Assembly: GCA_903921365.1 (NCBI GenBank)
Contig: CAIXPS010000033.1
Coordinates: 1 to 55,724 of the forward strand
Length of the DNA: 55,724 nt
Source of the DNA: an uncultured bacterium
Lineage (GTDB): Bacteria; Chloroflexota; Anaerolineae; J036; Brachytrichaceae
Direction: 5' to 3'
Positions within the stretch are counted from its first letter, which is position 1. Every line of letters begins with the position of its first letter. The position numbers and the translations under genes are program-made. Below are positions 2,134 to 46,887 of the stretch, one piece after another. The notes under the pieces were generated by a model that did not search any database, had not been told where the DNA came from, and saw only the letters and a program-made list of their open reading frames with translations.

Positions 2134-2162
2134 CGCACATTGCACGGAATCCTTTGTGGTTG

Positions 2163-4261: not shown

Positions 4262-6802
4262 ATGACTTTGCCTGACAAACAACCCCTTCTGCATGCGATT
4301 GGAAATGCTCACATCGATCCCGTCTGGCTGTGGCGCTGGCCGGAGGGTCTCGAAACGATTCGCGCCACTTTCCGTTCGGCGCTTGACCGTTTGAATGAGT
4401 ACCCCGATTTCGTGTTCAGCGGCAGTTCGGCTGCCTTCTATGCGTTGCTCAAACAGACCGATCCCGGCCTGTTTGAGGAAGTGGCCGCGCGCGTGCGCGA
4501 GGGACGATGGGAGATCGTCGGCGGCTGGTGGATTCAACCAGATGCGAATATCCCTTCCGGTGAGTCGTTTGTTCGTCAGGCCCTGTATGGACAGCGTTTC
4601 TTCCAGCAGGAATTTGGCGTGATGGCCACCATCGGCTACAACCCCGATACATTTGGGCACGCTGGCACACTGCCTCAAATTCTGAGCAAGTCTGGTCTAT
4701 CGCGCTATGTCTTCATGCGCCCAATGGCGCATGAGAAAACCCTGCCCGGCAACGTGTTTCGCTGGAAGTCCCTCGATGGCTCAGAAGTGCTGACCAGTCG
4801 CATTGCCCGCTCCTACGGCACCTGGGGCGATGAGTTGCGTGAGCACATTGATGCCAGCGACCGTGAGAGACCTGCGTATGTCAAGGACTACATGGTGTTT
4901 TATGGCGTTGGAAATCACGGCGGCGGCCCCACAAAGCGCAACATTGAGTCGATTCACGAGTTGAGCGCAGCGGGCAACGGCCCGGCACTGGCGCTGAGTT
5001 CTCTCAACGCGTTTTTCAGTTCAGTCGAAGCCGAGATCAGTGCTGGCGCCGCAGTGCCTGTTGTCGCAGATGACTTGCAGCATCACGCGCGCGGGTGCTA
5101 CACAGCTGAGTCGGAAGTCAAACGCCAGAATCGCAGACTGGAGCATCTACTCATGACGGCAGAACGATATGCCTCTATCGCGAGCGTTGTTCCTGGTCGG
5201 GCGTATCCGGGCAATGAGTTGACAGAGGCGTGGAAGGCCGTATTGTTCAACCAGTTCCATGATATTCTGGCCGGCAGCAGTCTGCCTGAGGCCTATCAAG
5301 ATGCGCGCGACGCCTATGGCTATGCGGCTCACATTGCGAATCAGGCGCTCAATACCTCACTCCAGGCGATTACGAGCCAGATCGACACACGTGGGAAAGG
5401 TGACGCGCTCGTGATCTTCAATCCGCTGCCTTGGCCGATTGTGGCGCCCATCGAGGTTGAGAGAGGGTCTGCGTCGATCAGCACTTCTGACGCGGTTATG
5501 CGGCGCATACCGTCGCAAGCCGTCCAGCCGACCACCGTTGTCGGGCAGCGCCGATCGTGTTTTGTCGCTGAGCTTCCAGCGATGGGCTACCGGGTCTTCC
5601 GCCAGGACGCAATGGCAGAAGCATCTGACAATCCATTGTTCAAGCCAGTTGCCGCGGGTGAGATAACTGCGAGCGGTGATGACCAGCTCAAAGTCACAAC
5701 GACGTCACTTGAAAACCGCTTCTGGCACATCGAGGTAGACCCGACGAGTGGGCACATGACGCGGTTGTTCGACAAACGACAGCAGGTTGAAGTTCTGTCA
5801 GCGGACGCGAATGTCGGTGTTGTGATCGATGACCCAAGCGACACATGGAGCCATGATGTGCTTTCATTCCGCAACGAGCTGGGGCGCTTTGGCGATGCAA
5901 CCATCAGCATCGAGGAAGCAGGGCCGGTGCGCGCCGCGCTGCGCATTGAGACGCACTGGGGCAATTCCACTCAACTGCAACGCTTGATGATCTATCGCGA
6001 TATCGATGTCATCGAATGCCGCATGACGGTGAACTGGCAGGAGCAGATGAAGATGCTCAAGTTGAGCTTCCCGCTGCGACTGCAAAACCCGCGCGCCACC
6101 TACGATATCGCTTACGGCTCCATCGAACGCGCCTGCAATGGCGAGGAAGAACCCGGTCAGCAATGGGTGGATGTCACTGGCACAGCACTAACGGCGACAG
6201 GCGACTCCGTGCAGTATGGTTTCAGTCTTCTGAACGACTCGAAATACGGATTTGACGTGCTTGACGCCGACCTGCGCATGAGCGTGTTGCGCAGCCCGAT
6301 CTACGCGTATCATGATCCCTACAAGCCAGAATCTCAGCGCCAGTACGTCTACGTAGATCAAGGCATTCAGGCGGTGACTTATCGCCTGCTCCCGCACGCC
6401 GGAGGCTGGCAGGAAGCCGCAGTGCCGCGCCGCGCATGGGAATTAAATGAGCGCCCGTCCTGGGTGAACGAGCACATCCATGCCGGCCCATTACCGCAGA
6501 GCGCGGCATTCCTGTCCGCTGAGCCGGAGAACATCGTCCTGGCGGTGTGCAAGAAGGCAGAAGATGGTGGCTTTGCACGCTTCGCGCTTGCGGGCAGCGA
6601 TGCGTTCATCGTGCGCGCCTACGAATCTGCCGGCAGGGCAACGCATGCAACTCTGTCAATCCCACAAATGAACGTGAGCTTCGCAGTCGATTTCGGCGCG
6701 CACGAGATAAAGACCTGGCGTATCGAGCTAACTTCGCCCCCAACGGTTATGGCTTTGCATCCCTTGTGGACGGAAGTGGATCTGCTGGAGCGGTCGATCT
6801 AA
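4262..6802 (+). CDS. GH38-family alpha-mannosidase
   Basis: An 846-residue cytoplasmic glycoside hydrolase family 38 enzyme removing alpha-mannosyl residues. The N-terminal catalytic domain shows HIDPVWLWRWPEG (zinc ligands H17 and D19), GGWWIQPDANIPSGES and GYNPDTFGHAGTLPQ with probable nucleophile D129. The GH38 middle and beta-sandwich C-terminal domains follow. GGAGG stands upstream of ATG 4262. Its C-terminal part carries two antisense dispersed-repeat peptides, GFARFALAGSD (6563-6593) and VMALHPLWTEVD (6749-6773). The last 56 bases overlap the convergent kinase gene on the other strand. It opens the carbohydrate island and has no signal peptide, so substrates must be imported. Confidence 0.92.
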   Translation: MTLPDKQPLLHAIGNAHIDPVWLWRWPEGLETIRATFRSALDRLNEYPDFVFSGSSAAFYALLKQTDPGLFEEVAARVREGRWEIVGGWWIQPDANIPSGESFVRQALYGQRFFQQEFGVMATIGYNPDTFGHAGTLPQILSKSGLSRYVFMRPMAHEKTLPGNVFRWKSLDGSEVLTSRIARSYGTWGDELREHIDASDRERPAYVKDYMVFYGVGNHGGGPTKRNIESIHELSAAGNGPALALSSLNAFFSSVEAEISAGAAVPVVADDLQHHARGCYTAESEVKRQNRRLEHLLMTAERYASIASVVPGRAYPGNELTEAWKAVLFNQFHDILAGSSLPEAYQDARDAYGYAAHIANQALNTSLQAITSQIDTRGKGDALVIFNPLPWPIVAPIEVERGSASISTSDAVMRRIPSQAVQPTTVVGQRRSCFVAELPAMGYRVFRQDAMAEASDNPLFKPVAAGEITASGDDQLKVTTTSLENRFWHIEVDPTSGHMTRLFDKRQQVEVLSADANVGVVIDDPSDTWSHDVLSFRNELGRFGDATISIEEAGPVRAALRIETHWGNSTQLQRLMIYRDIDVIECRMTVNWQEQMKMLKLSFPLRLQNPRATYDIAYGSIERACNGEEEPGQQWVDVTGTALTATGDSVQYGFSLLNDSKYGFDVLDADLRMSVLRSPIYAYHDPYKPESQRQYVYVDQGIQAVTYRLLPHAGGWQEAAVPRRAWELNERPSWVNEHIHAGPLPQSAAFLSAEPENIVLAVCKKAEDGGFARFALAGSDAFIVRAYESAGRATHATLSIPQMNVSFAVDFGAHEIKTWRIELTSPPTVMALHPLWTEVDLLERSI
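6563..6593 (-). repeat. Coding repeat, 27-bp type, in the mannosidase gene (antisense)
   Basis: On the minus strand: CCGCAAGCGCGAAGCG followed by TGCAAAGCCACC. It is read through on the plus strand as GFARFALAG, one of the five frames in which this element is translated in the window. Confidence 0.75.
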
Positions 6803-8855
6803 AGGTATTCAGCAATTCGATCAACGAGCGCCATTGTGAGAAATCCGGCGTAATCAGATGAGCGCCAGCGCGAATTAAACGGCGTCGCTTTGTGGTGTTG
6901 AGCCCAAAGCGACGCTCCTCGTTGCTCGCAATCCCCAATGTGGTTGCGCCGTTTCGCCGGCCCAGGCGAATCTCAACCGGCCCGTCGCCGACAACCAGTA
7001 GCCCTCCATCCACGCTATCGGAATTCGCGCCAATCTTATCGAGCAGGAACCTGATCATCTCGTCCTTCGTGTCTGCCCTGCTGCCTGGTTTTGCGCCGTA
7101 GATGCCCTGCTGGCTCTGCATCCCTTGTGGATCGAAAAGGCCTGCGTAACCTAGCAACGTGGCTTCGCGAATGGCATCCGCTTCATCGGTTCCACTGACC
7201 AGGAAGAGCTTGACATCCAAGGCGCGCAACTCTTTAAGAAATGAGAGTGCGCCCTTCATCATGAAATCATCCGAGGTCAACTCGCCGCGTTCAAGCCGCG
7301 CAATCCGGTCGTTCACCATCGCCATCAACGCGGTGTTGTAGGTTTGCTTATAACCCCAGGCGTCGAGGCGCTCCTGCACGGGGGCGATATCAAATTCGGC
7401 AACCAGCTTCACGAGTTCGTCCATCTGGGCGATTGTCTGGATGCCCGTGGATTGTTCGATCAACTGGCGCACCCGGCGCGTCACTTTCTGGAAGAGGCTG
7501 CTGTCCACCGAGTCGTAGCGGCTTCCCAGGATCGCGCGCGCCATGACTGGTTCCATCACAAATTCCCATCCTTGCCGGAGCGTCGAAATGGTGCCATCAT
7601 GGTCAAACACCGCGCACTGGTAGGGAAACCGCTCTGAGTCCCCCTGGGATGGCTGTGTGGTACCGGTAACGATCTCTATATCGCTCTGCAAGGGATCACG
7701 CTGGGCGTGGAATTTAGCGCGGCGCGATTCATCAGCAAGGGTAGGGCAGTAAACATACGATAACTTTTGTGCTGCTTCAACCAGTTCGGGTTCGCTCGCG
7801 GTTCCGGTCTGGTTGATCTTCTGCACCGTAATGGCGGCTGCGAGATTGCCCAGCGTGGCAGACGAGCGCGGGTCAAGCTGAATTGCCCTGCATGCCGCCA
7901 GCATCGCGGTGGCTGCATCGCCTGCGCCAACCGTGTCGGTTGGCCCTGTGATGGTGACGCCAGGAATGATGAACTCGTCGTCACCCTGTCCGGCGAGGAT
8001 GCCATTTTCACCGCGCGTAACAAAATACACTTCGCCGCTGTCGCGGTTGCCGCGGTTGCCGCGGTTGCCGCGCATCAGGCCGCGCAATAGCTTAATCCCC
8101 TCATCATGGCTTGGCACGCTTCGCGCCTGCAGATCGCCATCCCAAGGAGACTCAGAGCGGTATTCGCGGTCGGATTGCGCGAGGTCGAGAACATTGGCAG
8201 CTTCGCGCTGGTTCACTTTCAACGCATTCCGGGCGAAATAATGCACAAAATGACGCGCGTCGACGATATGGCGACCGGCCCAGTGATCGCGTAGTTCGGT
8301 AGACATCGACTGGGCTTGTTCGACAGAACACCAGCCATGTGGGATTTGTTGATTTACGATCAAAAAGTCAATCGCGCTGCGTTTTTCGCATAGGCAATTA
8401 ATCAATAAATCAGACGTTTCTCTTGTAGGCACATTAAAAAGGCCGAAATCAAGACGCTGTTGCTCAACACCATCAAGCAGGGGCTTCCCATAAACTGGTG
8501 TCGCCCAGCCAGTGCGCTGAACCACCAACCCGGATGTGTCTACGCCGAGTTCAGTTAGTTCACGCTTCATCTCACGACCAAACAGATCATCGCCGATGAT
8601 CGCGAAGGCCGTGATGTGTTTGATGCCAAGCGCTTTCAGGTTAACAACGACGTTGCCCGCGCCGCCCGGGCTATAACGTTCCGCCCTGACATGCTGGACC
8701 TGTTTGCCGGTCTCAATTGATGTCTCCGGGATGCTTGCATCAAGCTCCCAATAGGCGTCGATACAAAAATCACCGAGAACACCGATGCGCGCACCGCGCA
8801 CCTTCTCCATGACGTCGGCGATTTCGAGTTGTGTGGGGTAGAGTGTTTTAAACAT
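6747..8855 (-). CDS. Bifunctional PfkB-family sugar kinase / HAD hydrolase fusion
   Basis: A 702-residue fusion. Residues 1-375 are a ribokinase/PfkB domain closest in look to the heptose kinase half of HldE (GVLGDFCIDAYW, SPGGAGNVVVNL, and GPTDTVGAGDAAT with catalytic D313). Residues 412-690 are a HAD-superfamily phosphatase (VFDHDGTIS with D418/D420, FLVSGTDEAD, VVGDGPVEIRLG). Kinase and phosphatase in one chain suggest successive steps on one sugar phosphate. The kinase half carries repeat-derived inserts (WDGDLQARSVPSH, a GNR triplet near 263-271, DPLQSD), and DPQGMQSQQG lies in the HAD half. The C-terminal STRDAKP and stop come from another repeat copy. The start overlaps the end of the upstream deoxyhypusine-synthase-like gene by 8 bases. 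Substrate not determinable. Confidence 0.85.
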   Translation of the reverse strand: MFKTLYPTQLEIADVMEKVRGARIGVLGDFCIDAYWELDASIPETSIETGKQVQHVRAERYSPGGAGNVVVNLKALGIKHITAFAIIGDDLFGREMKRELTELGVDTSGLVVQRTGWATPVYGKPLLDGVEQQRLDFGLFNVPTRETSDLLINCLCEKRSAIDFLIVNQQIPHGWCSVEQAQSMSTELRDHWAGRHIVDARHFVHYFARNALKVNQREAANVLDLAQSDREYRSESPWDGDLQARSVPSHDEGIKLLRGLMRGNRGNRGNRDSGEVYFVTRGENGILAGQGDDEFIIPGVTITGPTDTVGAGDAATAMLAACRAIQLDPRSSATLGNLAAAITVQKINQTGTASEPELVEAAQKLSYVYCPTLADESRRAKFHAQRDPLQSDIEIVTGTTQPSQGDSERFPYQCAVFDHDGTISTLRQGWEFVMEPVMARAILGSRYDSVDSSLFQKVTRRVRQLIEQSTGIQTIAQMDELVKLVAEFDIAPVQERLDAWGYKQTYNTALMAMVNDRIARLERGELTSDDFMMKGALSFLKELRALDVKLFLVSGTDEADAIREATLLGYAGLFDPQGMQSQQGIYGAKPGSRADTKDEMIRFLLDKIGANSDSVDGGLLVVGDGPVEIRLGRRNGATTLGIASNEERRFGLNTTKRRRLIRAGAHLITPDFSQWRSLIELLNTFRSTAPADPLPSTRDAKP
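6749..6773 (-). repeat. Coding 21-bp repeat shared by two convergent genes
   Basis: On the minus strand: GTCCACAAGGGATGC then AAAGCCAT. It encodes the last residues of the kinase/HAD protein (STRDAKP, with the adjacent TAA stop) and, on the plus strand, VMALHPLWT of the mannosidase. One element is read in two genes on opposite strands. Confidence 0.75.
7111..7134 (-). repeat. Coding 21-bp repeat in the HAD domain
   Basis: Minus strand: GATCCACAAGGGATGC then AGAGCCA, translated as DPQGMQSQ in the HAD half of the fusion protein. Confidence 0.7.
7631..7651 (-). repeat. Coding 21-bp repeat (GAGTCC-core type) at the kinase-HAD junction
   Basis: Minus strand CATCCCAGGGGGACTC then AGAGC, exactly 21 bp, translated as SQGDSER in the interdomain linker just before the HAD motif. 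A partial related unit (TCGCTCTGCAAGGGATC) lies at 7681-7697. Confidence 0.6.
8037..8075 (-). repeat. 9-bp tandem repeat inside the kinase domain
   Basis: CGCGGTTGC is iterated three to four times and gives the peptide RGNRGNRGNR. The period of nine keeps the frame; copy-number slippage would add or remove GNR units in a surface loop beside the repeat-derived insert at 8105-8158. Confidence 0.7.
8105..8158 (-). repeat. Two adjacent coding repeat units in the kinase domain
   Basis: Minus strand, from 8158: a 21-bp GAGTCC-type unit in its other orientation, then a 27-bp unit containing CTGCAGGCGCGAAGCG and TGCCAAGC. Together they encode SESPWDGDLQARSVPSH, an insertion relative to ordinary PfkB kinases. 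Confidence 0.7.
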
Positions 8856-12120: not shown

Positions 12121-14316
12121 TCACAAAACATAATCGAGCTCATTTCGGTCATCAAAAACGCCTTTCAGGCATATCGCCACGTGATGTTGCAACTCTGGCA
12201 CAATGATCTGGAGCGTGCACGAATGACTTGGATCCTCACAGTCCCCAAGGGATGCAAGGCCATCCGCAAGCGCGAAGCGTGCAGAGCCATCCCTGGTTTC
12301 AACAACGCGATGCAGATCCTTATCTTCTGGCAAAAGGATGATTTTGCTGGGTTGCTGCGGCGGACGCACCGTCAGTGCAATATCCCGGTAAACAGGGACT
12401 TCGTCAAAAAACACCTCAGTGGGGGCGCCAAAGGATAGCCCCGGCGTCAGGTTGACAAGGTGCACGTAAAGATCGCCGTCACGCCTGTTTAATACCAGCT
12501 CGATGCCGGGATGCCCCGCCATCTCAACAAGCGGCAGCCGGCCTATGCCTTTGCGAACCGCAGATGCAATCAGGTCGCGCAACGGGGGCCAATGGGTGTC
12601 AGCATAATCACTCGCCGCTTCACCACTGATAATCAGCACGCTGCCGTCGCCTGATGTCAGCTCGGATAGCCATGGGACGATGGGCGCACCCTGCGCCTCA
12701 CCTGTTATGTACGGGATGAGACAACGGGTGTTGTCGCTCACTGCGAATCGGCGGTGACCCAGTTCAACTACGCGACCGTCCCAGTCCGCTTCGCCGCCGA
12801 AGTAATCTGTTGGGCGAATCGATACGCCTGGCGCATCACCCAGCAGTGTCTCGATCCAGCGCGTATCCCCACCGGTCAATTCAGTGGCGATGAGGAGTAT
12901 GCACCCGCCATCGAGGACATACTGGTGCAACCATTGGGCTGTGTCGAGGCTGAGAGCGGTTGTCTCAGGAAGTATGACGACGTGGTATTGCACCAGCCGG
13001 TTGAGCATCCCGTCATCATGGACAATATCACAAGGGATGTGCGCTTCTTGCAAAAGCTGTTGCATGGCGCGCACTATCTTGTCCTGGTGTTGCGGGTCAA
13101 CGAAGTGATCAAGCCTGCTGGCGAGCACGACGACTTCAGCAACGCTGCTATTGTCGATACACCATGATTGGCGTTCACGAACAAATGCGGCCAGCTTACC
13201 GGCAATATCGGCTTTGGTCTGTGGGATGCTGCCATCTGGCTTTGGGTCGTGCCAGAGGTTGACGCGCGCGCCATGCGCCAGTATGGTCGAAGCTTCCGTT
13301 TTCAGCTGGACCAGCGTGCGTAGTCTTCGCAGAAGTTGTGGCTTCCATTGGACAATGCCCTGCTCGTAGATCATGATATCCGCGGGTTGGCCAGCTGTGC
13401 TGATGTAGGTGGATTCGAACGATGCGCGATGGAGGTTGGGCGTGTTTATGGCGTCCCAACTCAGCCAGTCAACCTGGCCTTGCACGCTTCGCGCCTGTGG
13501 ATGGCCCTGCACGCTGCTTCGCGCTTGCGTATGGCCTTGCGTTCCTTGTGGGTCGCTATGGGCGCGGGATGTGTAAGTTTCGGGCATCGGCTTGCGCACG
13601 TCCTTGAAGAAGTACATAGTGTTGCACGCAAGCAAAATGGCAGGATCGTGCTGTCGAATCGAGCGAGCGATGTGGCTGATGGCGTTGTCCAGCGATTGCT
13701 CGTGAAATTCCTGTAGCTCCATCCATTCCAGCGGTGTGGGGTCGATGGGCATGCGATGACTATACAGCTGCGTGAAGCGCGCCTGGCAATGATCGCAAAA
13801 ACAGTAGCTATCGCGCTTCGGGGGTAGCCACGCGCCATCAATCCAGAAGTGCGCAGGATGATACCGGTCAATAATCTCATGCAGAAGAGGGATGAAAAAC
13901 TCATCTGCCCATGGCCCATTGGCGCAATAGTGCTGCGTCGAGATGGCGCCGCTGCTTGTGACGCAACGCCACTGTGGCACGCTCACCGGCGACTGGCAAT
14001 CAAAGGATGCAGCATAACAGCCGAACGCGACGCCCTCTTTGGCGCAAGCCTCCACCCATTTCTGGAGTGGGTCGCCAATCAAGCCGGGGACAACTGGCGC
14101 AATATCCGATGGATAGCTCGCATATCCAAAACAACCAATCGCGTGGCACTGTGTCGCATCCGGTTTGACACACTGCAGATACCGGCGAATTTGTGCGATG
14201 TCGGTGCCTTTGCCATACTGCTGGGCAGCGTTTTCAGGATGGTGATCCCAGTGGATGCACAGTGCGTTGTAAACACGGCTTTGCGCGCTTCGCGCTTGCG
14301 GACGGCGATGGCTCAT
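12121..14316 (-). CDS. Beta-galactosidase-like glycosidase with trimerisation domain
   Basis: A 731-residue probable glycoside hydrolase. The N-terminal half looks like a TIM barrel (VYNALCIHWDHHPENA, HFWIDGAWLPP, a CDHC cysteine pair). The middle resembles the beta-galactosidase trimerisation/amidotransferase-like domain of GH42 relatives (VVILPETTALS, WLHQYVLDGGCILLIA), followed by a beta-sandwich. No signal peptide. The start ATG overlaps the stop of the Gfo/Idh/MocA gene as ATGA. The first 13 residues, one internal linker (about residues 252-281) and a C-terminal stretch (ARFALADGLASLGD) are translated dispersed repeats, the heaviest load of any gene here. The exact GH family is uncertain. 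Confidence 0.65.
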   Translation of the reverse strand: MSHRRPQARSAQSRVYNALCIHWDHHPENAAQQYGKGTDIAQIRRYLQCVKPDATQCHAIGCFGYASYPSDIAPVVPGLIGDPLQKWVEACAKEGVAFGCYAASFDCQSPVSVPQWRCVTSSGAISTQHYCANGPWADEFFIPLLHEIIDRYHPAHFWIDGAWLPPKRDSYCFCDHCQARFTQLYSHRMPIDPTPLEWMELQEFHEQSLDNAISHIARSIRQHDPAILLACNTMYFFKDVRKPMPETYTSRAHSDPQGTQGHTQARSSVQGHPQARSVQGQVDWLSWDAINTPNLHRASFESTYISTAGQPADIMIYEQGIVQWKPQLLRRLRTLVQLKTEASTILAHGARVNLWHDPKPDGSIPQTKADIAGKLAAFVRERQSWCIDNSSVAEVVVLASRLDHFVDPQHQDKIVRAMQQLLQEAHIPCDIVHDDGMLNRLVQYHVVILPETTALSLDTAQWLHQYVLDGGCILLIATELTGGDTRWIETLLGDAPGVSIRPTDYFGGEADWDGRVVELGHRRFAVSDNTRCLIPYITGEAQGAPIVPWLSELTSGDGSVLIISGEAASDYADTHWPPLRDLIASAVRKGIGRLPLVEMAGHPGIELVLNRRDGDLYVHLVNLTPGLSFGAPTEVFFDEVPVYRDIALTVRPPQQPSKIILLPEDKDLHRVVETRDGSARFALADGLASLGDCEDPSHSCTLQIIVPELQHHVAICLKGVFDDRNELDYVL
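12244..12293 (+). repeat. Coding repeat pair (21+27 bp) near the 3' end of the glycosidase gene
   Basis: Plus strand: a 21-bp-type unit (CCCAAGGGATGCAAGGC), then a 27-bp unit starting CATCCGCAAGCGCGAAG and ending TGCAGAGC, then CATCC. The gene reads it antisense as ARFALADGLASLGD. Confidence 0.75.
13476..13560 (-). repeat. Triple coding repeat (21+30+27 bp) in the glycosidase gene
   Basis: Minus strand, in order: a 21-bp unit (CCCACAAGGAACGCAAGGC), a 30-bp unit (27-bp type with an extra GCA) and a 27-bp unit. All are multiples of three. They encode a Gln/His/Ser-rich linker between residues about 252 and 281 with the motifs DPQGTQGH, TQARSSVQGH and PQARSVQGQ. Confidence 0.8.
14276..14316 (-). 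repeat. Coding repeat covering the start of the glycosidase gene
   Basis: Minus strand: ATGAGCCATCGCCGTC then CGCAAGCGCGAAGCG and CGCAAAGCC. The unit directly follows the start codon and encodes residues 2-13 (SHRRPQARSAQS). Conserved sequence begins only after it. Confidence 0.75.
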
Positions 14317-15575: not shown

Positions 15576-15717
15576 TGTATTTCTCCATCGTAAAGGATTT
15601 ACGCAACCACATGCAATACACCTCTGGCCTTGCGGGACTGGATGTATATGTATATTGTGGCGCGTGATTTATCTCAAGCTGTATTTTATTGAATTTTTAA
15701 AATAAGTTTTAGCATTG

Positions 15718-15737
15718 CCTTGAATCTTTTAGGATTG
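15718..15737 (+). repeat. Intergenic 20-bp repeat, copy 3
   Basis: CCTTGAATCTTTTAGGATTG, 25 bases ahead of the likely ATG of the RuBisCO-like gene. Unlike copies 2, 7 and 8, the AAAGGA-containing strand faces away from the gene. Confidence 0.75.
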
Positions 15738-18313: not shown

Positions 18314-19168
18314 ATGGACGTAGGCATCTTTGCGAAGATATTCCAACGGCCCAGCCTGGAAGAAACGTTCGATACGGTTCGCTCACACGGCATTCAGTTT
18401 GTGCAGTTCAACATGGCGTGCGCGGGGCTGCCGACACTGCCAGACGCCATTCCGCCTGCGGTATGCGAGCACATTGTGGAGGCTGCATCCAGACGCGGAA
18501 TACAGATGCCGGCGCTGTCTGGCACGTTCAACATGATTGACCCGAATGTGGCTGCGCGCGCTGAGGGTTTGACGCGGCTGCGGGTGCTGGCGCAGGCTGC
18601 GAATCGTATGGCGATTCCAATGATCACGCTCTGCACTGGCACGCGTGATCCGCACAATATGTGGAGTAGGCATCCGGACAACACCACGAAAGAGGCCTGG
18701 GTGGACTTGCTTGCGTCAATGGAAACCGCCGTCCAGATCGCGGAGGAGAACGATATCGTCCTGGGCGTCGAGCCTGAGTTGTCGAATGTCATCGATTCGG
18801 CCCCCAGGGCGCGCCGCCTTCTGGATGAGTTGCGCACACCGCGCGTCAAGATTGTCATGGATGGCTCAAACCTGTTAAGCATTCATGAGCTTGACAAAAT
18901 GCATAATATCCTTGAACAGGCATTTGATCTGCTGGGTGATGAAATTCAGCTGGTGCACGCCAAAGACCTGATGCCTGACCCGGTGGATGGCCTACAAGCG
19001 CGAAGCGTGCAAAGCCACCATGGCGCTGCGGGGTCAGGCGTCCTGGATTATGATCTCTATCTGCGCCTGCTCCAAAAAGTGAACTACAGCGGGCCGCTCA
19101 TCCTGCATACTTTGCAAGAAGACGAAGTTGACACAAGTGTGGCATTTCTGCGATCCAAACTGCACTGA
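18314..19168 (+). CDS. Sugar phosphate isomerase/epimerase, xylose isomerase-like TIM barrel
   Basis: A 284-residue AP-endonuclease-2/xylose-isomerase-like barrel. Metal-ligand regions: LGVEPELSN, VKIVMDGSN and LVHAKDLMP, with an EDEVD segment at the end. GGAGGAG lies just before the gene and only five bases separate it from the preceding dehydrogenase stop. Members epimerise or isomerise keto-sugars. Residues about 224-235 (DGLQARSVQSHH) are a repeat-derived insert in a loop before the last strands. The stop TGA falls inside a degenerate GAGTCC-type repeat at 19162-19183. Probably works in the same pathway as the two preceding genes. Confidence 0.85.
   Translation: MDVGIFAKIFQRPSLEETFDTVRSHGIQFVQFNMACAGLPTLPDAIPPAVCEHIVEAASRRGIQMPALSGTFNMIDPNVAARAEGLTRLRVLAQAANRMAIPMITLCTGTRDPHNMWSRHPDNTTKEAWVDLLASMETAVQIAEENDIVLGVEPELSNVIDSAPRARRLLDELRTPRVKIVMDGSNLLSIHELDKMHNILEQAFDLLGDEIQLVHAKDLMPDPVDGLQARSVQSHHGAAGSGVLDYDLYLRLLQKVNYSGPLILHTLQEDEVDTSVAFLRSKLH
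18985..19021 (+). repeat. Coding 27-bp repeat in the TIM-barrel gene
   Basis: Plus strand: CTACAAGCGCGAAGCG then TGCAAAGCCACC, translated in frame as LQARSVQSHH. Confidence 0.75.
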
Positions 19169-21297: not shown

Positions 21298-21329
21298 TCT
21301 ACTTTACAGAATATCACAGTTTGTAATTG

Positions 21330-21369
21330 CTTTGAATCTTTTAGGATTGCTTTGAACCCTTTAGGGTTG
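21330..21369 (+). repeat. Intergenic 20-bp repeats, copies 4a and 4b in tandem
   Basis: CTTTGAATCTTTTAGGATTG is followed without a gap by CTTTGAACCCTTTAGGGTTG. The second differs at positions that change both arms together (AATCC/GGATT to AACCC/GGGTT), a compensatory pattern. A degenerate third unit (CCTTGAGTTCGTCAGG) follows. They lie between metW and obgE. Confidence 0.85.
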
Positions 21370-23134: not shown

Positions 23135-23153
23135 AGTGACATATCGACGATTG

Positions 23154-23173
23154 CTTTGAACCCTTTAGGGCTG
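23154..23173 (+). repeat. Intergenic 20-bp repeat, copy 5, in the metX leader
   Basis: CTTTGAACCCTTTAGGGCTG. On the metX strand this is CAGCCCTAAAGGGTTCAAAG, between the predicted transcription start (about 23183) and ATG 23134, so it is transcribed into the mRNA leader. Confidence 0.8.
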
Positions 23174-23218: not shown

Positions 23219-23275
23219 GTCCTGCGCGTCGCCGCAGGAACGTGTAGAATAAATCGTTAGAATCCACATTGCCTG

Positions 23276-23295
23276 CCTTGAATCCTTTAGGTTTG
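23276..23295 (+). repeat. Intergenic 20-bp repeat, copy 6
   Basis: CCTTGAATCCTTTAGGTTTG, 24 bases before the ATG of the membrane-protein gene at 23320, in the metX-divergent intergenic region. Confidence 0.75.
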
Positions 23296-23319: not shown

Positions 23320-24648
23320 ATGAAAGTAAGTCTAAATCGCGATAACGCTGTCATCGCGGCGCTGATAGTTGGTCTGTTAATCGGGCTGGCGCTAGGCGCC
23401 TATGTCTTCTATGCCATATTCCCGGCCGACGTCATTATGAAAAATGCGTCTCCGAAGTTTCTTAATAGCGACCCCGTATCGCAAACACCGCAATACCGCG
23501 ATTTTTATGTAGTCCGGGCGGCGAACAAGTATCAGCATGACGTGCAGACAGGAGTCCCGGATCAATTGCGCGGCGCTGAGGATGTCCTGGGCGTCACGAG
23601 CGGCGACACGAGCATGGAGGAGGCGATTGCGATGGTGCGCGCCTCAGAGAAAGTGGTCAGCAAGGAAAACAATAGTGATGGAGATGCCGGCCTGTTCACG
23701 CGGAACGAAGAGCTTGCTATGGGCGCATTGGCGGGCGCTCTGGATAAGGCTTTGCAGTCCGGGAATTATCCAAAAATCGACCCGTCCAAGTATGCGCCGC
23801 TTCAGAGTAAGACGACAGTCCGAATCGTTGGGGCGGTCGTGTGGCTATTGCTCTCCGGTCTGGGGGTTTGGCTAATACTGTGGATGAACCGCCGCACGCG
23901 TTCTGGTGAAAGCGTGGCTCAACCGGAGGGATTTTTCAGCCCGCAAGCGCGAAGCGCGCAAAGCCACAACTCCGCGAGCTGGCGCGAACCAGCGCCAGCG
24001 CAGGACCCTATGGCGCCAATTCGCACACCCGACTTGGCTGCTCATAATTCAACCGTAAATCTAAGCCCGACATCGCCGGGGAGTGGCTCATCCACAGGGG
24101 ATGCAAGGCCATCCGCAGGGGATGCAAGGCCATCCGCAGGGGATGCAAAGCCATCAATATTTGCCGCGCCTTCAGCGCGCCTTACGTCGCCCGTCATTTC
24201 GGGCGAGGCGCCCATCTCGACATTTGCGCCGACGGTATATCGGCATGGCGACGATCATTACGACGAGGATTTTGCCATCAATGGGCCGCTTGGCGAATTG
24301 GTAGGCGAGTGTGGCGCGAGTATTGCAGATCGGCTCGGACTCGATGCGCCATCTCGTGTGTCAGCGTTATCACTGTGGGTCTTCGACAAGAATGATTTCC
24401 AAAGCACGACCAAGGTGTTGATGACTAATTATGCGTGGAATGACACAGTAACGCGCTCAAAATTGAAGGCGCGCGGTGAGGCCGTTCAGGCCATGGATGG
24501 CGGTGTGATCGAGATATTGACGTCGACTTTACGGGTCGAGGCTCAGGTCAGCGATCTGACCTACAACACCGACAAAAACCCCGACCACGGCTATTTTCAA
24601 AATGTAACACTGACGTTCAGAGTCTTTAAGCGCCAGGCGTCCGCGTAA
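23320..24648 (+). CDS. Two-TM membrane protein with a repeat-rich linker, function unknown
   Basis: A 442-residue protein not assigned to a family. TM1 (about 11-34), an extracytoplasmic domain (about 35-165, with SPKFLNSDPVSQTPQYRDFYV), TM2 (about 168-191), a low-complexity linker (about 195-300) and a cytoplasmic C-terminal domain (about 305-440). The linker holds a 27-bp repeat translated as SPQARSAQSHN and three tandem 21-bp repeats translated in a different frame as GDARPSA. The C-terminal domain (DFAINGPLGELVGECG, ALSLWVFDKNDFQS) looks compact and conserved. Bipartite topology suggests a signalling or secretion-linked role, but I would not name one. The last 23 bases overlap the convergent methyltransferase gene. 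Confidence 0.7.
   Translation: MKVSLNRDNAVIAALIVGLLIGLALGAYVFYAIFPADVIMKNASPKFLNSDPVSQTPQYRDFYVVRAANKYQHDVQTGVPDQLRGAEDVLGVTSGDTSMEEAIAMVRASEKVVSKENNSDGDAGLFTRNEELAMGALAGALDKALQSGNYPKIDPSKYAPLQSKTTVRIVGAVVWLLLSGLGVWLILWMNRRTRSGESVAQPEGFFSPQARSAQSHNSASWREPAPAQDPMAPIRTPDLAAHNSTVNLSPTSPGSGSSTGDARPSAGDARPSAGDAKPSIFAAPSARLTSPVISGEAPISTFAPTVYRHGDDHYDEDFAINGPLGELVGECGASIADRLGLDAPSRVSALSLWVFDKNDFQSTTKVLMTNYAWNDTVTRSKLKARGEAVQAMDGGVIEILTSTLRVEAQVSDLTYNTDKNPDHGYFQNVTLTFRVFKRQASA
23939..23970 (+). repeat. Coding 27-bp repeat in the membrane-protein linker
   Basis: CCGCAAGCGCGAAGCG then CGCAAAGCCACAAC, translated as PQARSAQSHN. Confidence 0.75.
24090..24153 (+). repeat. Three tandem 21-bp coding repeats in the membrane-protein linker
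   Basis: CATCCACAGGGGATGCAAGGC, then CATCCGCAGGGGATGC plus AAGGC, then CATCCGCAGGGGATGC plus AAAGC. The gene reads them as GDARPSA units. In the GNAT and amidase genes the same unit is read one frame over as HPQGMQS or HPQGVQS. Confidence 0.85.
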
Positions 24649-25867
24649 AGAGCGCTACAGTTTCAACGTGGTGTGTTTGCGGGAACATGTCCAGTGGCTG
24701 CACCGTGCCAAGTGTGTATCCGCGATCACAGATGATGCGCGCGTCACGGGCCAGCGTTGCCGGGTCGCATGAAACGTAGACCAGACGTGCGGGCTTTAAC
24801 TTTAGTATATCGAGCAGCGACTCGTACTCGACTCCGGCGCGGGGAGGATCGACAACGATAGCGTCCCAGCGGTGGTTCAGTTCAGGGCGAGCGAGAGCAT
24901 CAGTCATGTCGGCAGTCATGATAACGGCGTTAGGGAAGCTTTTCAGGTTGACGAGTGCGTCTGCGGTCGCAGATGGGTTGGCTTCGATTCCCATGACAAA
25001 ATGGCACTGTGCTGCTATCGGCGCGGTAAACAGACCCACGCCGCAATATAGGTCGAGAACATCGTCCTCAACACCCAGTCCGAGCGCTTTGAGGACTAGT
25101 GACACAAGCGTCTCAGTCACCTTTGTGTTGATCTGGAAAAATGATCCAGGAGAGATGCGGTAGGCGTGTGCACCGATTCGTTCATTGATGACTCCTGTGT
25201 CGCCCATCGTCTTTATCACACCGTCAGGATTGGTCACAAACGCGGTGACTTCGCCAGTATTGGCGCCAGCGCGTAAGTGAATCTCGTTCACCTCATGCGC
25301 AGTTGCCTCATTCAATGCGGTAGCCAGAAGACTATCAGGGAGACTTGGATTCCGGGTTTCCAAGTCCAACTTCGCACTGAGTGCGGTGGCAATGACAGGG
25401 CAATGATCCACTTCAATCACGGTTTGTGACCCGGCTTCGCGATAACCGAGCACGCCGTGAGGTGAGACGACAAATTGTGTGTGGTTGCGATAGTGGTATT
25501 GTGTCGGACTTGGAAGACAGCTTTCAACCGCAACCTGAGCAAACTTGCCGATGCGGGTGAGTTGTTCGTGAACAGCTTGAGTTTTAAAGAGCAGTTGCTG
25601 TTCATAGCTTATGTGCTGCCACTCACAGCCTCCGCATGTCTGAAAGTATTTGCACTCAGGCGCGGTTCGAGCAGGCGACGGTCGCAGGATGTTCAGGATG
25701 CGACCACGGGAGAAGGAACGGCGCTTGTGAACGATCTCGACTTCGACCAGGTCGCCAGGCATACCGTAAGGAACAAAAACCACCAGGCCTTCGTGCTTGC
25801 CAATCGCTTCGCCCGTAGGCGCCATGCGCATAAGTTCAATTCGCAAAGGATGCAAAGTCATCATCAT
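24626..25867 (-). CDS. RumA/RlmD-type RNA (uracil-5-)-methyltransferase
   Basis: A 413-residue SAM-dependent RNA m5U methyltransferase. An N-terminal TRAM-like domain (GEAIGKHEGLVVFVPYG) is followed by the cysteine cluster CKYFQTCGGCEW plus the cysteine in VDHCPV, a likely 4Fe-4S site, then PGSFFQINTKVTE, VLDLYCGVGLFT (SAM site), VVDPPRAGV and catalytic cysteine YVSCDPATLARD. The target is probably 23S rRNA or tRNA uridine; family alone does not settle it. Three ATG codons in a row (25867-25859) have no Shine-Dalgarno, and the codons after them (TLHPLR) come from a dispersed repeat. Its start is only 16 bases from the divergent GNAT start. Confidence 0.9.
   Translation of the reverse strand: MMMTLHPLRIELMRMAPTGEAIGKHEGLVVFVPYGMPGDLVEVEIVHKRRSFSRGRILNILRPSPARTAPECKYFQTCGGCEWQHISYEQQLLFKTQAVHEQLTRIGKFAQVAVESCLPSPTQYHYRNHTQFVVSPHGVLGYREAGSQTVIEVDHCPVIATALSAKLDLETRNPSLPDSLLATALNEATAHEVNEIHLRAGANTGEVTAFVTNPDGVIKTMGDTGVINERIGAHAYRISPGSFFQINTKVTETLVSLVLKALGLGVEDDVLDLYCGVGLFTAPIAAQCHFVMGIEANPSATADALVNLKSFPNAVIMTADMTDALARPELNHRWDAIVVDPPRAGVEYESLLDILKLKPARLVYVSCDPATLARDARIICDRGYTLGTVQPLDMFPQTHHVETVALFTRTPGA
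25841..25863 (+). repeat. Repeat at the start of the RNA methyltransferase gene
   Basis: TCGCAAAGGATGCAAAGTC then ATC. It resembles the 21-bp unit and is translated on the minus strand as MTLHPLR, another case of a repeat next to a start codon. Confidence 0.5.
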
Positions 25868-25883
25868 TGTTACAGTTTAAACT

Positions 25884-26933
25884 ATGACATCTACTATGAA
25901 GTCAGACGATCATACGAACCAGGATATGCAAGTGGGACAACTCACCGGAGAACGGGCGGCGGAAATCGACCACCTATCCGAGAGTCGCCGCGTGTACAAC
26001 CACCTCGACTGGTGGAAAGCGGCTGAATGGGTGGGCAGTGATTTGTTCTCCTGCGCACTGATACATGGCAAGGTGGCCGCAGCGCTTCTGGCCGTGCCGG
26101 TTGCGCTTGACGCCCGGCACGACTGGCGCGAAGAATGGTTTTGCATCCCTGGCGGACTGGGCGGTGCGCCAACACAGCCGCAGATGGCCTTTCACGCTTC
26201 GCGCTTGCGGATGGCTATGCATCCCTTGCGGACCGCATGGCTCAGATGGTGTGGGGTTGCTGATGGCGTATCCGCGTCGCGCGTCTTGAAAGCGCTCTTT
26301 GAGTATAGTGAGGCGCAATGGATCAAGGCTGGCATTACGCAGATTTATAGCATTATTGAACCAGGGCATTGGTTTGATCATTACCTGAGAAAAAACCAAT
26401 ATGCACTGTTGGACGAAGTTGTCACGATGATTTGCAGCCCGCAGTCGCGAAGCGTGCAAAGCCATCCACAAGGGGTGCAAAGCCATCCACAAGCGCGAAG
26501 CGTGCAAAGCCACCAAATGGTGATCCGCAGAGCGAGCGACCATGATCTTGCGGCAGTGTGTGACGTCGACAAAAATGCCTTTGAGGAGATGTGGCAATTC
26601 CCACTGTTTATCCTGCGCTGCACACTGGCGACAAGCGCTTACTCCACTGTGGCTGAAATAGGCGAGCGTGTGGTTGGCTATCAGATGACGGCATTAACGG
26701 AGGGTGATGCGCATATCACGCGCCTGGCAGTCCACACTGATTTTCAGCGATGCGGTATTGGTGGCGCGCTGCTTGCCGATACAATGACGTTTATGAAACT
26801 CTGGTATGACGCGCAGCACATCACGTTGAACACACAGGCCAGTAATCAGGCGTCACAGCGCCTTTACGAGAGATTTGGATTCGTGGCGCTAAGTCCCCGG
26901 TTTCGTGTAATGGGCAAGAGTCTTAAGGCGTAA
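25884..26933 (+). CDS. GNAT-family N-acetyltransferase with repeat-derived inserts
   Basis: A 349-residue protein with two halves. The N-terminal part (about 1-165) looks like a degenerate GNAT-like domain (RRVYNHLDWWKAAEWVG, HWFDHYLRKNQY). The C-terminal domain (about 213-348) is a clear GNAT fold with the acetyl-CoA loop QRCGIGGALLAD and NQASQRLYERFGF. Between and within them are two repeat clusters: MAFHASRLRMAMHPLRTAW (antisense reading, residues about 101-119) and a Gln/Ser/His linker with PQSRSVQSH and PQGVQSH (about 184-212). Resembles ribosomal-protein or small-molecule acetyltransferases; substrate unknown. ATG 25884 or 25896 could be the start; neither has an obvious Shine-Dalgarno. 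Confidence 0.8.
   Translation: MTSTMKSDDHTNQDMQVGQLTGERAAEIDHLSESRRVYNHLDWWKAAEWVGSDLFSCALIHGKVAAALLAVPVALDARHDWREEWFCIPGGLGGAPTQPQMAFHASRLRMAMHPLRTAWLRWCGVADGVSASRVLKALFEYSEAQWIKAGITQIYSIIEPGHWFDHYLRKNQYALLDEVVTMICSPQSRSVQSHPQGVQSHPQARSVQSHQMVIRRASDHDLAAVCDVDKNAFEEMWQFPLFILRCTLATSAYSTVAEIGERVVGYQMTALTEGDAHITRLAVHTDFQRCGIGGALLADTMTFMKLWYDAQHITLNTQASNQASQRLYERFGFVALSPRFRVMGKSLKA
26180..26240 (-). repeat. Coding repeat pair (21+27 bp), antisense in the GNAT gene
   Basis: Minus strand: GGTCCGCAAGGGATGC plus ATAGC, then a 27-bp unit CATCCGCAAGCGCGAAGCG plus TGAAAGGC, then CATC. The gene reads the other strand as AFHASRLRMAMHPLR. Confidence 0.8.
26436..26515 (+). repeat. Triple coding repeat (28+21+27 bp) in the GNAT interdomain linker
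   Basis: Units in order: a 27-bp-type unit with CGCAGTCGCGAAGCG, a 21-bp unit CATCCACAAGGGGTGC plus AAAGC, and a 27-bp unit CATCCACAAGCGCGAAG plus CGTGCAAAGC. They encode the linker SRSVQSH, PQGVQSH, PQARSVQSH. Confidence 0.85.
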
Positions 26934-26961: not shown

Positions 26962-27891
26962 ATGAAAAAGCCAAAAGCGAAACAAGACGACAGCGTGCAG
27001 CGTGAGAACGTGCGTCGCGCGCAAGAGGCCGGGAAGCGACAGGCGGCAACGTCGGCGCGAAGATCAGTTGACGATGACCGGAACAGTCGTCGCTTTGTCC
27101 CTGATCGTCATGTAAACAACGACCCGCAAGGGATGCAAAGCCATGTCTCAGTGCCTGTCCCGGCGCTTATACGGCGCGCATTTGTGTTTGCGGTAGTCAT
27201 CGTCGGCGTAGGTCTGGTGCTTTATGCCCTGATTAAAAACCTTGCAAGCGGCCTGCCCATCCCATTGCCATTAGCGCTTTCGAGTCAACGCGCGGAGGAA
27301 ACACCGACATCTGCGCCGCCGGCACAACGCATCGGTATTGTCAGTGGACACAAGGGCAACGACAGCGGTTCGGTTTGTCAGGATGGCCTGACCGAGGCCC
27401 AGGTGAACTATGATATCGCAGTGCGCGTCGCCACAATGTTGCGGTCGCAGGGCTACACGGTTGACATTCTTGATGAGTTCGACGCCCGCTTAAAAGGATA
27501 TCACGCCGCGCTACTCTTGTCTGTTCATGCCGATTCATGCACCTATGTCAATGATCTTGCAACCGGTTTTAAGGTTGCGCGCGTGCTCGACAGCAAAATA
27601 CCACAGGAAGAAGACCGCCTCGTAGCGTGTCTCACTACACGCTACATGGCAAGCACCGGGTTGCGTTTCCACCAGAACACGGTCACGTTTGACATGACCA
27701 AATACCACGCATTCTATGAGATTGACGAGCGCACCCCTGGCGCCATTATCGAAACTGGTTTTCTTTATCTGGATCGTCAGGTGCTCACGCAAAAACCACA
27801 GTTGGTCGCACAAGGCATCTATGACGGTTTGATTTGCTTCCTGAACAATCAGCAAGGGATGCGGAGCCGTGAAAACCCGAAATCATCATAG
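26962..27891 (+). CDS. Membrane-anchored N-acetylmuramoyl-L-alanine amidase (Amidase_3)
   Basis: A 309-residue cell-wall hydrolase cleaving the MurNAc-L-Ala bond. A Lys/Arg-rich cytoplasmic N-terminus (1-69) precedes one TM helix (about 70-92), a Pro-rich linker and the zinc-dependent amidase domain: GHKGNDSG with H130, LTEAQ with E145, LLSVHADS with H189 and IIETGFLYL with catalytic E264. A repeat-derived peptide DPQGMQSH lies just before the TM helix, and a degenerate copy (QQGMRSR) is at the C-terminus. It is followed by an L,D-transpeptidase, consistent with a peptidoglycan-remodelling pair. Confidence 0.9.
   Translation: MKKPKAKQDDSVQRENVRRAQEAGKRQAATSARRSVDDDRNSRRFVPDRHVNNDPQGMQSHVSVPVPALIRRAFVFAVVIVGVGLVLYALIKNLASGLPIPLPLALSSQRAEETPTSAPPAQRIGIVSGHKGNDSGSVCQDGLTEAQVNYDIAVRVATMLRSQGYTVDILDEFDARLKGYHAALLLSVHADSCTYVNDLATGFKVARVLDSKIPQEEDRLVACLTTRYMASTGLRFHQNTVTFDMTKYHAFYEIDERTPGAIIETGFLYLDRQVLTQKPQLVAQGIYDGLICFLNNQQGMRSRENPKSS
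27121..27146 (+). repeat. Coding 21-bp repeat in the amidase N-terminus
   Basis: CCGCAAGGGATGCAAAGCC then ATG, translated as PQGMQSH in the cytoplasmic tail. Confidence 0.75.
27847..27871 (+). repeat. Degenerate coding 21-bp repeat at the amidase C-terminus
   Basis: CAGCAAGGGATGCGGAGCC then GTG, translated as QQGMRSR, eight codons before the stop. Confidence 0.5.
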
Positions 27892-27984
27892 TGCGGCATA
27901 ATATGCATGGCTCATCACGGAAACCGTGATGGATGGGTGACAATATAGTCACTCGTGATCTGTTTATTTGTGGAGGTGGGTACT

Positions 27985-28539
27985 ATGGTTACGGCGGGCT
28001 CTTCGGGTGATCGGAGACGATTTTTTACGCGGACTGTGTTGTTCTCGATTGTCATGATTTTTGCGCTTGCAATGGCTATTTTCGCGGGCGCGCCTGTTGA
28101 AGCTGGCCCTGTCGCAGAGGCGGGTAACACCGCGGGCGTCAACGCAATTGTAGCGGGCGCCTCGACTGCACTTGATCAGGCGCGCACAGGCAAATGGATC
28201 GAGGTCATTCTGTCGCAGCAACGCTTGAACGCCTGGGAGAACGGCCATATCGTCATGAGTTCGGCGATCTCAAGCGGCGTCAGCGCGTATCCGACCTTGC
28301 GCGGAACATTTAAGGTCTATGTCAAGTATCGTTCGACCCGAATGCGCGGGCCGGGTTATAACCTGCCTGGTGTGCCCTATACCATGTACTATTCGGGCAG
28401 CTATGCGATCCATGGAGCCTACTGGCATCATAACTTCGGACATCCCATGAGCCATGGCTGCGTTAACCTGCCTGTGCCATTCTCTCGCTCGCTGTTCCTA
28501 TGGACGCCAAATGGCACTACTGTCGTGATTCACTCCTAA
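27985..28539 (+). CDS. L,D-transpeptidase (YkuD/ErfK family)
   Basis: A 184-residue secreted L,D-transpeptidase that forms 3-3 peptidoglycan cross-links or attaches proteins to the wall. A signal anchor (about 15-38) is followed by the YkuD domain with YAIHGAYWH (H143) and SHGCVNL (H157, C159 nucleophile). GGAGGTG seven bases before ATG 27985 fixes the start over the longer frame from 27955. The stop TAA (28537-28539) is the centre of intergenic repeat copy 7. Confidence 0.93.
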   Translation: MVTAGSSGDRRRFFTRTVLFSIVMIFALAMAIFAGAPVEAGPVAEAGNTAGVNAIVAGASTALDQARTGKWIEVILSQQRLNAWENGHIVMSSAISSGVSAYPTLRGTFKVYVKYRSTRMRGPGYNLPGVPYTMYYSGSYAIHGAYWHHNFGHPMSHGCVNLPVPFSRSLFLWTPNGTTVVIHS

Positions 28540-28550
28540 AGGATTCAAAG
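28531..28550 (-). repeat. Intergenic 20-bp repeat, copy 7, at an operon junction
   Basis: Plus strand CACTCCTAAAGGATTCAAAG. TCC TAA gives the L,D-transpeptidase stop and AAAGGA follows directly, the same arrangement as copy 2 on the other strand. The codon at the position where copy 2 has ATG is ATA (28553), in frame with the solute-binding protein. Confidence 0.85.
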
Positions 28551-28567
28551 CAATAAGCAAACGCCAT

Positions 28568-29987: not shown

Positions 29988-30693
29988 CAGGTCTCCTAAA
30001 TAGTTTGCGCAAGAGAAACCCTAATAATCTCTTTAGTATTAAATAAGCAAGCAAAGCCCCGAACGCATAGGCTGTATAGGTTGCGCCTTTGGCGAACGCG
30101 CGCGGGATGTCAGCGAGATTTAATGTTGGAGTGTTGGCATTGCTGCTAAACGTTAAACTGATAGGCGCGCTGGAAGTCAACGTCGTGGTTACGCCGAGCG
30201 CCGCTGGCGTTCCGCTGGCGGGCGTTGCGCTCTGATTTGCCAAGGTGATATCGCGAACCAGAGCCTCGACGGCGCTGCCATCAGCCGAGAACACCTGTAG
30301 CTTTACAGCATATTTGCCATCGGCAAGGGGGCGTGTATTCCACACAGCCAACGAGCCATTGGGAACAGGTTGCGCCGCGCCATTGATGAGCACCCAGTTG
30401 GCAATATCGGGTTCTGGCGCATACATGACCTGGTAACGCGTAAACTGCGGCGCCGTTGCGCTGCCCTGGATTGAGACGTTGCCACGGAGCGTCTGGCCGC
30501 GCACAGGCAGGATGATGCGGGCCAAGGGGGCATCCTGGGCAGTCACTGGAGTGACGACTGAGATTAACGCCAAAATAGCCCCGACCATCGCCGTGGCGCT
30601 AAGTATGGCTTTGCACGCTTCGCGCATGCGGAATGACTGTGCTATGCGTATCACGATATCTTTCACCGGGTGGCAAGTGTAACCTGTTTTCAT
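29971..30693 (-). CDS. Secreted or anchored Ig-like domain protein, unknown function
   Basis: A 240-residue protein with an N-terminal signal or anchor (about 30-53), an Ig/fibronectin-like beta domain (about 57-150: RIILPVRGQTLRGNVSIQGSA, DGKYAVKLQVFSADGSAVE), a Thr/Ala linker and a C-terminal TM helix with a basic tail (about 207-240). Probably extracytoplasmic and tethered. The start may be ATG 30693 or ATG 30627; residues 22-30 (FRMREACKA) are a translated 27-bp repeat in yet another frame. Its end overlaps pth by 17 bases, so the two are co-transcribed. Confidence 0.7.
   Translation of the reverse strand: MKTGYTCHPVKDIVIRIAQSFRMREACKAILSATAMVGAILALISVVTPVTAQDAPLARIILPVRGQTLRGNVSIQGSATAPQFTRYQVMYAPEPDIANWVLINGAAQPVPNGSLAVWNTRPLADGKYAVKLQVFSADGSAVEALVRDITLANQSATPASGTPAALGVTTTLTSSAPISLTFSSNANTPTLNLADIPRAFAKGATYTAYAFGALLAYLILKRLLGFLLRKLFRRPVDFGR
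30605..30631 (-). repeat. Coding 27-bp repeat near the start of the Ig-like protein gene
   Basis: Minus strand CCGCATGCGCGAAGCG then TGCAAAGCCAT, translated as RMREACKAI. This is the IRKREACKA frame of the unit. Confidence 0.7.
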
Positions 30694-38461: not shown

Positions 38462-38466
38462 GATCG

Positions 38467-38486
38467 CCTTGGATCCTTTAGGGTTT
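38467..38486 (+). repeat. Intergenic 20-bp repeat, copy 8, before carA
   Basis: CCTTGGATCCTTTAGGGTTT. On the carA strand it reads AAACCCTAAAGGATCCAAGG, placing AAAGGA 12 bases before the carA ATG. Confidence 0.8.
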
Positions 38487-46860: not shown

Positions 46861-46867
46861 GTTATAA

Positions 46868-46887
46868 CCTTGAATCCTTTGGGAATG
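46868..46887 (+). repeat. Intergenic 20-bp repeat, copy 9
   Basis: CCTTGAATCCTTTGGGAATG, between the MFS stop (46860) and the HDAC-like gene start (46935), both on the plus strand. Confidence 0.75.

Follow-up and report, generated by a model that had tools for sequence, protein, structure and literature searches.

A lineage-restricted family of 21-bp repeats, read in all six frames, that very probably multiplies as DNA in a Brachytrichaceae genome

How one 21-bp unit comes to be translated into different peptides in neighbouring genes is the question raised by contig CAIXPS010000033.1 of an uncultured Brachytrichaceae bacterium (assembly GCA_903921365.1), the whole of which, 55,724 nucleotides, forms the window analysed here. 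A sequence-only reading had found this unit in a membrane-protein gene and, on both strands, in a GNAT gene, and had taken the DNA rather than the peptide to be conserved. The unit very probably belongs to a family of tiny dispersed repeats that is confined to one lineage, resembles in kind the small dispersed repeats (SDRs) of Nostoc, and multiplies as DNA. Below, G000 stands for the assembly (6.88 Mb, 603 contigs, 2.9% contamination) and C33 for the contig that forms the window; G001, G002, and G004 are relatives of the same genus.

The family comprises three size forms, of 20 nt (intergenic) and of 21 nt and 27 nt (mostly genic). The A unit has 21 nt (CCGCAAGGGATGCAAAGCCAT), the B unit has 27 nt, as the GGA of A is replaced by CGCGAAGCG, adding six bases, and the C unit is a 20-nt relative (CCTAAAGGATTCAAAGCAAT). 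The full form can be written as 5'-[CNNY]-CC(N)AARGG-AXY-CAAAG-C-Y'X'T-3'. Window scans with at most 5-7 mismatches returned 16 matches to A, 11 to B, and 11 to C, and the reversed sequence, scanned as a control, gave no match. The copies extend from 2.1 kb to 46.9 kb, so that the interval 24,090 to 26,515, to which the sequence-only reading had assigned the phenomenon, does contain copies but is too small. Across G000, CCGCAAGGGATGCAAAGCCAT occurs with at most three mismatches in 37 places (control, 0). Copies were counted by frame, length, and location in a 1.39-Mb sample of G000, in which the 20- and 21-nt forms together number 162 copies (about one in the reversed control) and the 27-nt form 11.

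A first line of evidence consists of filled and empty sites. At C11:44095-44115 of G000, the filled site reads CTCGAT/CCCAAAGGGACTCAAAGCAGT/AAAACCC. Its empty counterpart in the same genome is a paralogue on contig C140, with surroundings 83% identical and the junction CGAT/AAAA (CTCGATAAAACCC). Compared with relatives of the same genus, the flanks join exactly at the DNA level around the 27-nt units at 14275 and 18992 and the 21-nt unit at 27850; at 45608 the join is nearly exact. Similarly, the copy at C533:23435 has an empty site in genome G020 at CGTT. The gaps at the protein level are clean as well, namely net seven residues at 7110-7130 and 27850-27870 and nine at 18992-19018. Orthologues and a same-genome paralogue that lack the repeats at exact junctions indicate DNA insertion, and uphold the preference of the sequence-only reading for propagation at the DNA level over protein-domain shuffling. 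The 21- or 27-bp insertions are precise and no target duplication was detected in them (at most 1 bp); a duplicated T is possible, because the base before the unit and the last base of the unit are both T.

A second line of evidence is the target. Copies lie directly 3' of a CNNY motif, the two middle bases of which are nearly free. When non-tandem copies are placed from the sequence of the unit only, C occupies position -4 in 72 of 87 cases in G000 and in 26 of 32 in G001, and the full CNNY flank is present in 68 of the 87, against a background of 14% of positions. This left-flank motif is the same in G001 and in all dialects, the local sequence variants described below. The right (3') flank carries no sequence signal, and a target-site duplication of NN found no support in matching 5' and 3' tetranucleotides (7 observed, 9.1 expected from shuffling).

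Thirdly, the unit is internally structured. Its 3' end is C-Y'-X'-T, with which a triplet near the middle co-varies (TT/AA, TG/CA, CT/AG, and CG/CG). Positions 10-11 are paired with positions 18-19 (pairs 10-19 and 11-18) in 81-86% of cases, about 49-56% being expected (permutation p<0.0005 for the two adjacent pairs). On any tree, at least three double changes would be required, unless recombination produced one of the combinations. On the 5' side of the co-varying positions there is a short CC..GG stem. The stems are short, and DNA folds of single copies of the ATG dialect were no better than those of shuffles; tandem copies yield longer stems, and some 20- and 21-nt copies occur as inverted pairs with strong hairpins. 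REPIN-like inverted pairs with stems of 12-14 bp and a short loop were encountered on G000 contigs C5 (14111-14148 and 14465-14502) and C186 (16657-16689). No signal was seen for pairing between the 5' NN and the internal XY, a left guide sought at every position of the unit gave nothing after correction, and the target middle NN did not match the 3' end of the unit (p=0.57).

The 69 coding 21-nt copies of the sample use the same-strand frames 17, 10, and 8 times and the antisense frames 14, 17, and 3 times; the uneven usage (chi-square p=0.02) is driven by a rare Cys-rich antisense frame, the sole one clearly under-used. Hence, the strong genome-wide preference for one frame that the sequence-only reading had named as contrary evidence was not found. 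The hand-placed A and B copies of the window fall 13, 4, and 1 times in the same-strand frames and 4, 3, and 1 times in the antisense frames. Mismatches to the dialect consensus are distributed evenly over host codon positions 1, 2, and 3 (60, 53, and 51, with equal site numbers), so that no constraint at the peptide level is visible. The conclusion that the DNA and not the peptide is propagated is thereby supported.

The host reading frame is nevertheless a filter for the copies. None of the six frames is interrupted by a stop in the ATG dialect, the ACG dialect, or the 27-nt form; in the ATT and ACT dialects a TGA closes one antisense frame, and stops also occur in the 20-nt forms. Among the 21-nt copies (n=86), 69 are coding, 5 lie at gene edges, and 12 are intergenic; the corresponding numbers for the 20-nt copies (n=76) are 8, 23, and 45, in a sequence that is 92% coding (Fisher p=3e-20; p=4e-17 with the window excluded). 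Several of the eight coding 20-nt copies are close to the predicted starts of genes and could be due to start-site errors. That lengths within genes are divisible by three and that the 20-nt relatives lie outside is what identifies the frame as the filter. Insertions would land in and between genes alike, and purifying selection would purge those that shift the frame or bring a stop, leaving 20-nt forms between genes and keeping 21- and 27-nt forms within genes, mostly in linkers and near termini. This amounts to a natural experiment, one short DNA in six frames of real genes, in which DNA spread and protein selection can be separated by counting. It also calls for caution in annotation, as the short repeated peptides PQGMQSH, AGDARPS, MALHPLR, and DGFASLA of this lineage are translated repeats and not domains, and some predicted starts and stops fall within repeats.

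Propagation further appears to be partly local. The 21-nt copies are more alike within a contig than elsewhere (mean distance 5.32 versus 6.62; 0 of 5000 shuffles, p<0.0002), and their resemblance falls with distance inside contigs (p about 0.03); for the 20-nt form, clustering of dialects by contig was not significant (p=0.50). The ATG..CAT dialect occurs on C33, C23, and C124, ATT..AAT on C5, ACT..AGT on C533, C101, and C217, and ACG..CGT on C467 and C401, several dialects coexisting on C33. The 27-nt form is confined, within G000 as a whole, to the stretch between 6.6 and 30.6 kb of C33. Its limitation to these 24 kb, together with the contig dialects, suggests short-range spread. The homologous loci on C23 and C124 carry three-unit arrays with one unit out of register.

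Outside this genome, the family is scarce. A degenerate pattern that hits 57 places in G000 has no more than two hits (0-2) in any of 297 further genomes of the class. Stricter patterns hit 7-14 places in G001 and a few in G003, and found no copies in G002 and G004. These counts indicate that the family is confined to a small clade. In public collections, the exact pattern RTGCAAAGCCATCCRCAAG gave nine scattered genome matches, about chance level, and a similar 18-nt pattern gave three viral contigs. Other lineage-specific short repeats are CCTTCGACAAGCTCAGGATGACC in G002 and AGACTCCCGGAATCT and AATCTCCAATCTCC in G003.

As to how the unit multiplies, it would be a mobile unit that is copied as DNA, possibly by way of an RNA or single-stranded intermediate, and that targets CNNY, and its spread would be partly short-range. 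As the element itself ends in CNNT, its own end would be a preferred target, which would explain the tandem arrays. An RNA route, reportedly proposed for the Nostoc repeats, would stand on an equal footing with single-strand transposition. Tentatively, the family may represent an undescribed class of minimal mobile DNA of about 21 nt, inserted precisely 3' of CNNY with no target duplication, with pairing of an internal triplet and the 3' end, nearby spread, and coding (3n) and non-coding (20-nt) size forms. The target rule and the internal covariation open the mechanism to testing, and the family hints at mobile units near the lower limit of size.

A Y1/HUH transposase (IS200/IS605 or RAYT-like) that moves a minimal single-stranded unit in trans would be a version of this explanation and not an alternative to it, though a rather doubtful one. 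Insertion 3' of a retained tetranucleotide without detectable duplication and the co-variation of an internal triplet with the right end recall Y1/HUH single-strand transposition, in particular that of IS608 (PMC5934647), and the repeat-bearing G000 and G001 are the only genomes with strong Y1_Tnp matches (88-100 bits). However, none of these Y1 genes is flanked by repeat copies, the Y1 proteins of G000 and G001 look different in type, and the free target middle matches neither the 3' end nor, after correction, any internal position. One Y1 transposase gene (G000 C505, 1342-1842) lies 12 bp downstream of a long gene and is surrounded by palindromic repeats of its own. The long gene may be part of a PglX-type methyltransferase. 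A RAYT/REP link was rejected, the Y1_Tnp genes being without adjoining copies and the palindromes beside one of them not being the element studied.

It is improbable that the dialects are a binning artefact, produced by combining strains or species whose repeat families differ. The size, fragmentation, and contamination of the assembly and a very uneven repeat load could be read in that way. Against this stand the single transfer-messenger RNA (tmRNA) above the cut-off, the homogeneous tetranucleotide signature, the several dialects on C33, and the decay of resemblance within contigs, and the insertions themselves would be left unexplained. C33 as a contaminant contig was ruled out by three observations: it bears the only tmRNA match of G000 above the cut-off (30755-31160; no other known RNA family was found in the window), its tetranucleotide signature correlates at about 0.91-0.96 with that of other G000 contigs, and it is syntenic with G002 and G004 over most of its length.

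Slightly less probable still are local replication errors (slippage, template switching, or gene conversion), with dispersed copies arising by short-range template switching. Tandem arrays, the out-of-register arrays of C23 and C124, contig dialects, distance decay, and the 27-nt form within 24 kb would all be expected from them, but isolated copies far from others, precise ends, a common left-flank motif, and both orientations within one gene would not. Finally, that the repeats are modules shuffled or retained for the function of an encoded peptide such as PQGMQSH has been largely refuted. In favour of it, about half of the window copies are read in the PQGMQSH/PQARSVQSH frame and the inserts lie in linkers; against it stand the use of all six frames across the genome, the even spread of divergence over codon positions, and the location of the 20-nt forms outside genes.

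Several points weigh against the interpretation as DNA that multiplies by insertion. Some of the sampled contigs were picked for carrying matches, the genes were called by a home-made, simple hexamer model, and in the permutation controls related copies enter as if they were independent, with copies and not events being counted. Several empty sites come from relatives 15-35% diverged at the DNA level, so that they show the ancestral target only approximately, and the nucleotide-level empty sites reading CNNT number only two. In addition, no candidate enzyme gene is linked to the repeats, and mobility is read from comparisons of one assembly with itself and its relatives.

The individual copies of the window are listed in Table 1. 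The three tandem units of the membrane-protein open reading frame (ORF) are present, at slightly corrected positions (24092-24154), with the reading (S)TGDARPSAGDARPSAGDAKPS; Tandem Repeats Finder delimited the array at 24089-24155 (95% match), and about 21 residues are missing at this site in orthologues of G002, G004, and others. Concerning the GNAT gene, the earlier assignment needs division: the middle unit (26466-26486, PQGVQSH) is the 21-bp unit, and both flanking units are the 27-bp variant (PQARSVQSH type). This array sits in the linker preceding the GNAT domain. The opposite-strand reading in the same gene was confirmed as a 27-bp and a 21-bp antisense copy; these and the older copy at 26135-26155 fall within a 29-residue stretch missing from GNAT orthologues. 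In one ORF the A unit at 6749-6769 is read as MALHPLW; in the other it contributes STRDAKP and a portion of the stop.

Other tandem repeats were found in the window. A perfect 9-bp tandem, CGCGGTTGC (8042-8072, translated as RGNRGNRGNR), adjoins the B copy in the PfkB/hydrolase gene and is lacking in G002. A 15-bp array, GACGAGTGACGCAGT (40489-40680; 12.9 copies, 94% match), unrelated to the repeat studied, lies between a gene ending at 40407 and one starting at 40732. An imperfect 27-bp tandem repeat, GCGGCCACTACGAATATGATCCACGTG, is located near the contig end (54872-54962).

Table 1. Copies of the repeat family in the window
Copy	Position	Strand	Context and reading
A-A-A tandem (3 x 21 nt)	24092..24154	+	membrane-protein ORF 23320-24648, same strand, read STGDARPSAGDARPSAGDAKPS
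B	23941..23967	+	ORF 23320-24648, read PQARSAQSH; absent from orthologues
B-A-B tandem (27+21+27 nt)	26439..26513	+	GNAT ORF 25884-26933, read PQSRSVQSH-PQGVQSH-PQARSVQSH
B (26184-26210) + A (26211-26231)	26184..26231	-	antisense to GNAT gene, read MAFHASRLR-MAMHPLR
Older A	26135..26155	-	antisense in GNAT gene, read EWFCIPGG
B	6567..6593	-	antisense in GH38 gene, read GGFARFALAG; gap of about 10 residues in G002 orthologue
A	6749..6769	-	across convergent 3' ends of ORFs 4262-6802 (+) and 6747-8855 (-)
A	7110..7130	-	hydrolase domain gene, read PQGMQSQ; net 7-residue (21-nt) insertion versus G002
B	8106..8132	-	PfkB part of hydrolase-domain gene, read LQARSVPSH
A+B tandem	12243..12290	+	antisense in ORF 12121-14316; net 16-residue (48-nt, 21+27) insertion versus G002
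B (13474-13500) + A (13531-13551), degenerate copy between	13474..13551	-	35 residues absent from G002
B	14275..14301	-	near N terminus of ORF 12121-14316; exact 27-nt insertion versus G002
B	18992..19018	+	TIM-barrel gene, read LQARSVQSH; exact 9-residue (27-nt) insertion
A	25841..25861	+	antisense at start codon of RNA methyltransferase gene 24626-25867, read MTLHPLR
A, consensus	27124..27144	+	amidase gene 26962-27891, read PQGMQSH
A	27850..27870	+	near amidase C terminus, read QQGMRSR; exact 21-nt insertion versus G004
B	30605..30631	-	near N terminus of ORF 29971-30693, read FRMREACKAI
A	45608..45628	-	provides predicted start codon of ORF 44753-45619; absent from G004
21 nt, ACT..AGT dialect	7628..7648	-	hydrolase gene; weak, 15.5 bits
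21 nt, ACT..AGT dialect	8141..8161	+	antisense in PfkB/hydrolase gene; weak, 15.3 bits
C, two in tandem (20 nt)	2139..2178	-	intergenic
C, two in tandem (20 nt)	21326..21365	-	intergenic
C	23150..23169	-	directly upstream of gene 22031-23134
C	23272..23291	-	upstream of ORF 23320-24648
C	28535..28554	+	at stop codon of 27955-28539
C	15714..15733	-	gene edge
C	38463..38482	-	directly upstream of ORF 37289-38461
C	46864..46883	-	intergenic

Among known systems, the best match is provided by the SDRs of Nostoc, to which the family is likened by description. Elhai et al. 2008 (Genome Res 18:1484) reportedly described SDR1-8 of Nostoc punctiforme and its relatives as dispersed repeats of 21-27 nt with compensatory changes and recent mobility. 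Common to both are this length range, dispersal, a division into several families, restriction to one lineage, insertion into or beside own copies, a structure backed by compensatory changes, and recent mobility, seen here as filled and empty sites. The Nostoc study is cited in PMC3733652 and PMC4390886, and SDR5 inserts precisely inside HIP1 (PMC4390886). The present family differs in its phylogenetic setting, its dominant six-frame insertion of 3n length in protein genes, CNNY, and its contig dialects.

Other systems share single traits. Rickettsia palindromic elements (RPEs) are palindromic selfish DNA that is likewise inserted in frame in conserved protein genes (PMC2229807, PMC3733652), but they measure 105-146 bp (PMC2229807) and have terminal inverted repeats, in contrast to units of 20, 21, or 27 nt that use six frames and carry no CGTC tag. 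Correia/NEMIS elements also have two related size forms, an open one in genes and a stop-containing one between genes; however, with 107 and 155 bp they are the size of miniature inverted-repeat transposable elements and possess terminal inverted repeats and a TA duplication (PMC2229807). REP/REPIN sequences (PMC3116915, PMC3733652) are likewise short, palindromic, and of high copy number, and some inverted pairs (C5, C186) are REPIN-like. Yet REPs are defined by a GTAG or CGTC tag at one end (PMC3733652), whereas the conserved ends here are CNNY and CNNT, with no copies around any Y1_Tnp locus and no adjoining RAYT. Their extragenic trait is displayed by the 20-nt form and the 21-nt form is mostly coding. 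REPs within genes have been described as well (PMC3733652). With IS200/IS605 elements, the family would have in common insertion 3' of a retained tetranucleotide and internal sequence that pairs with an end; IS608 keeps this tetranucleotide in its left flank and its guides pair with the cleavage sites (PMC5934647). The differences are the absence of a gene from the element, its length of only 21 nt, the degenerate target middle, and the lack of a linked tnpA. What looks novel is the combination of the six-frame, 3n-length intragenic life of the 21-nt unit with a target rule and local dialects.

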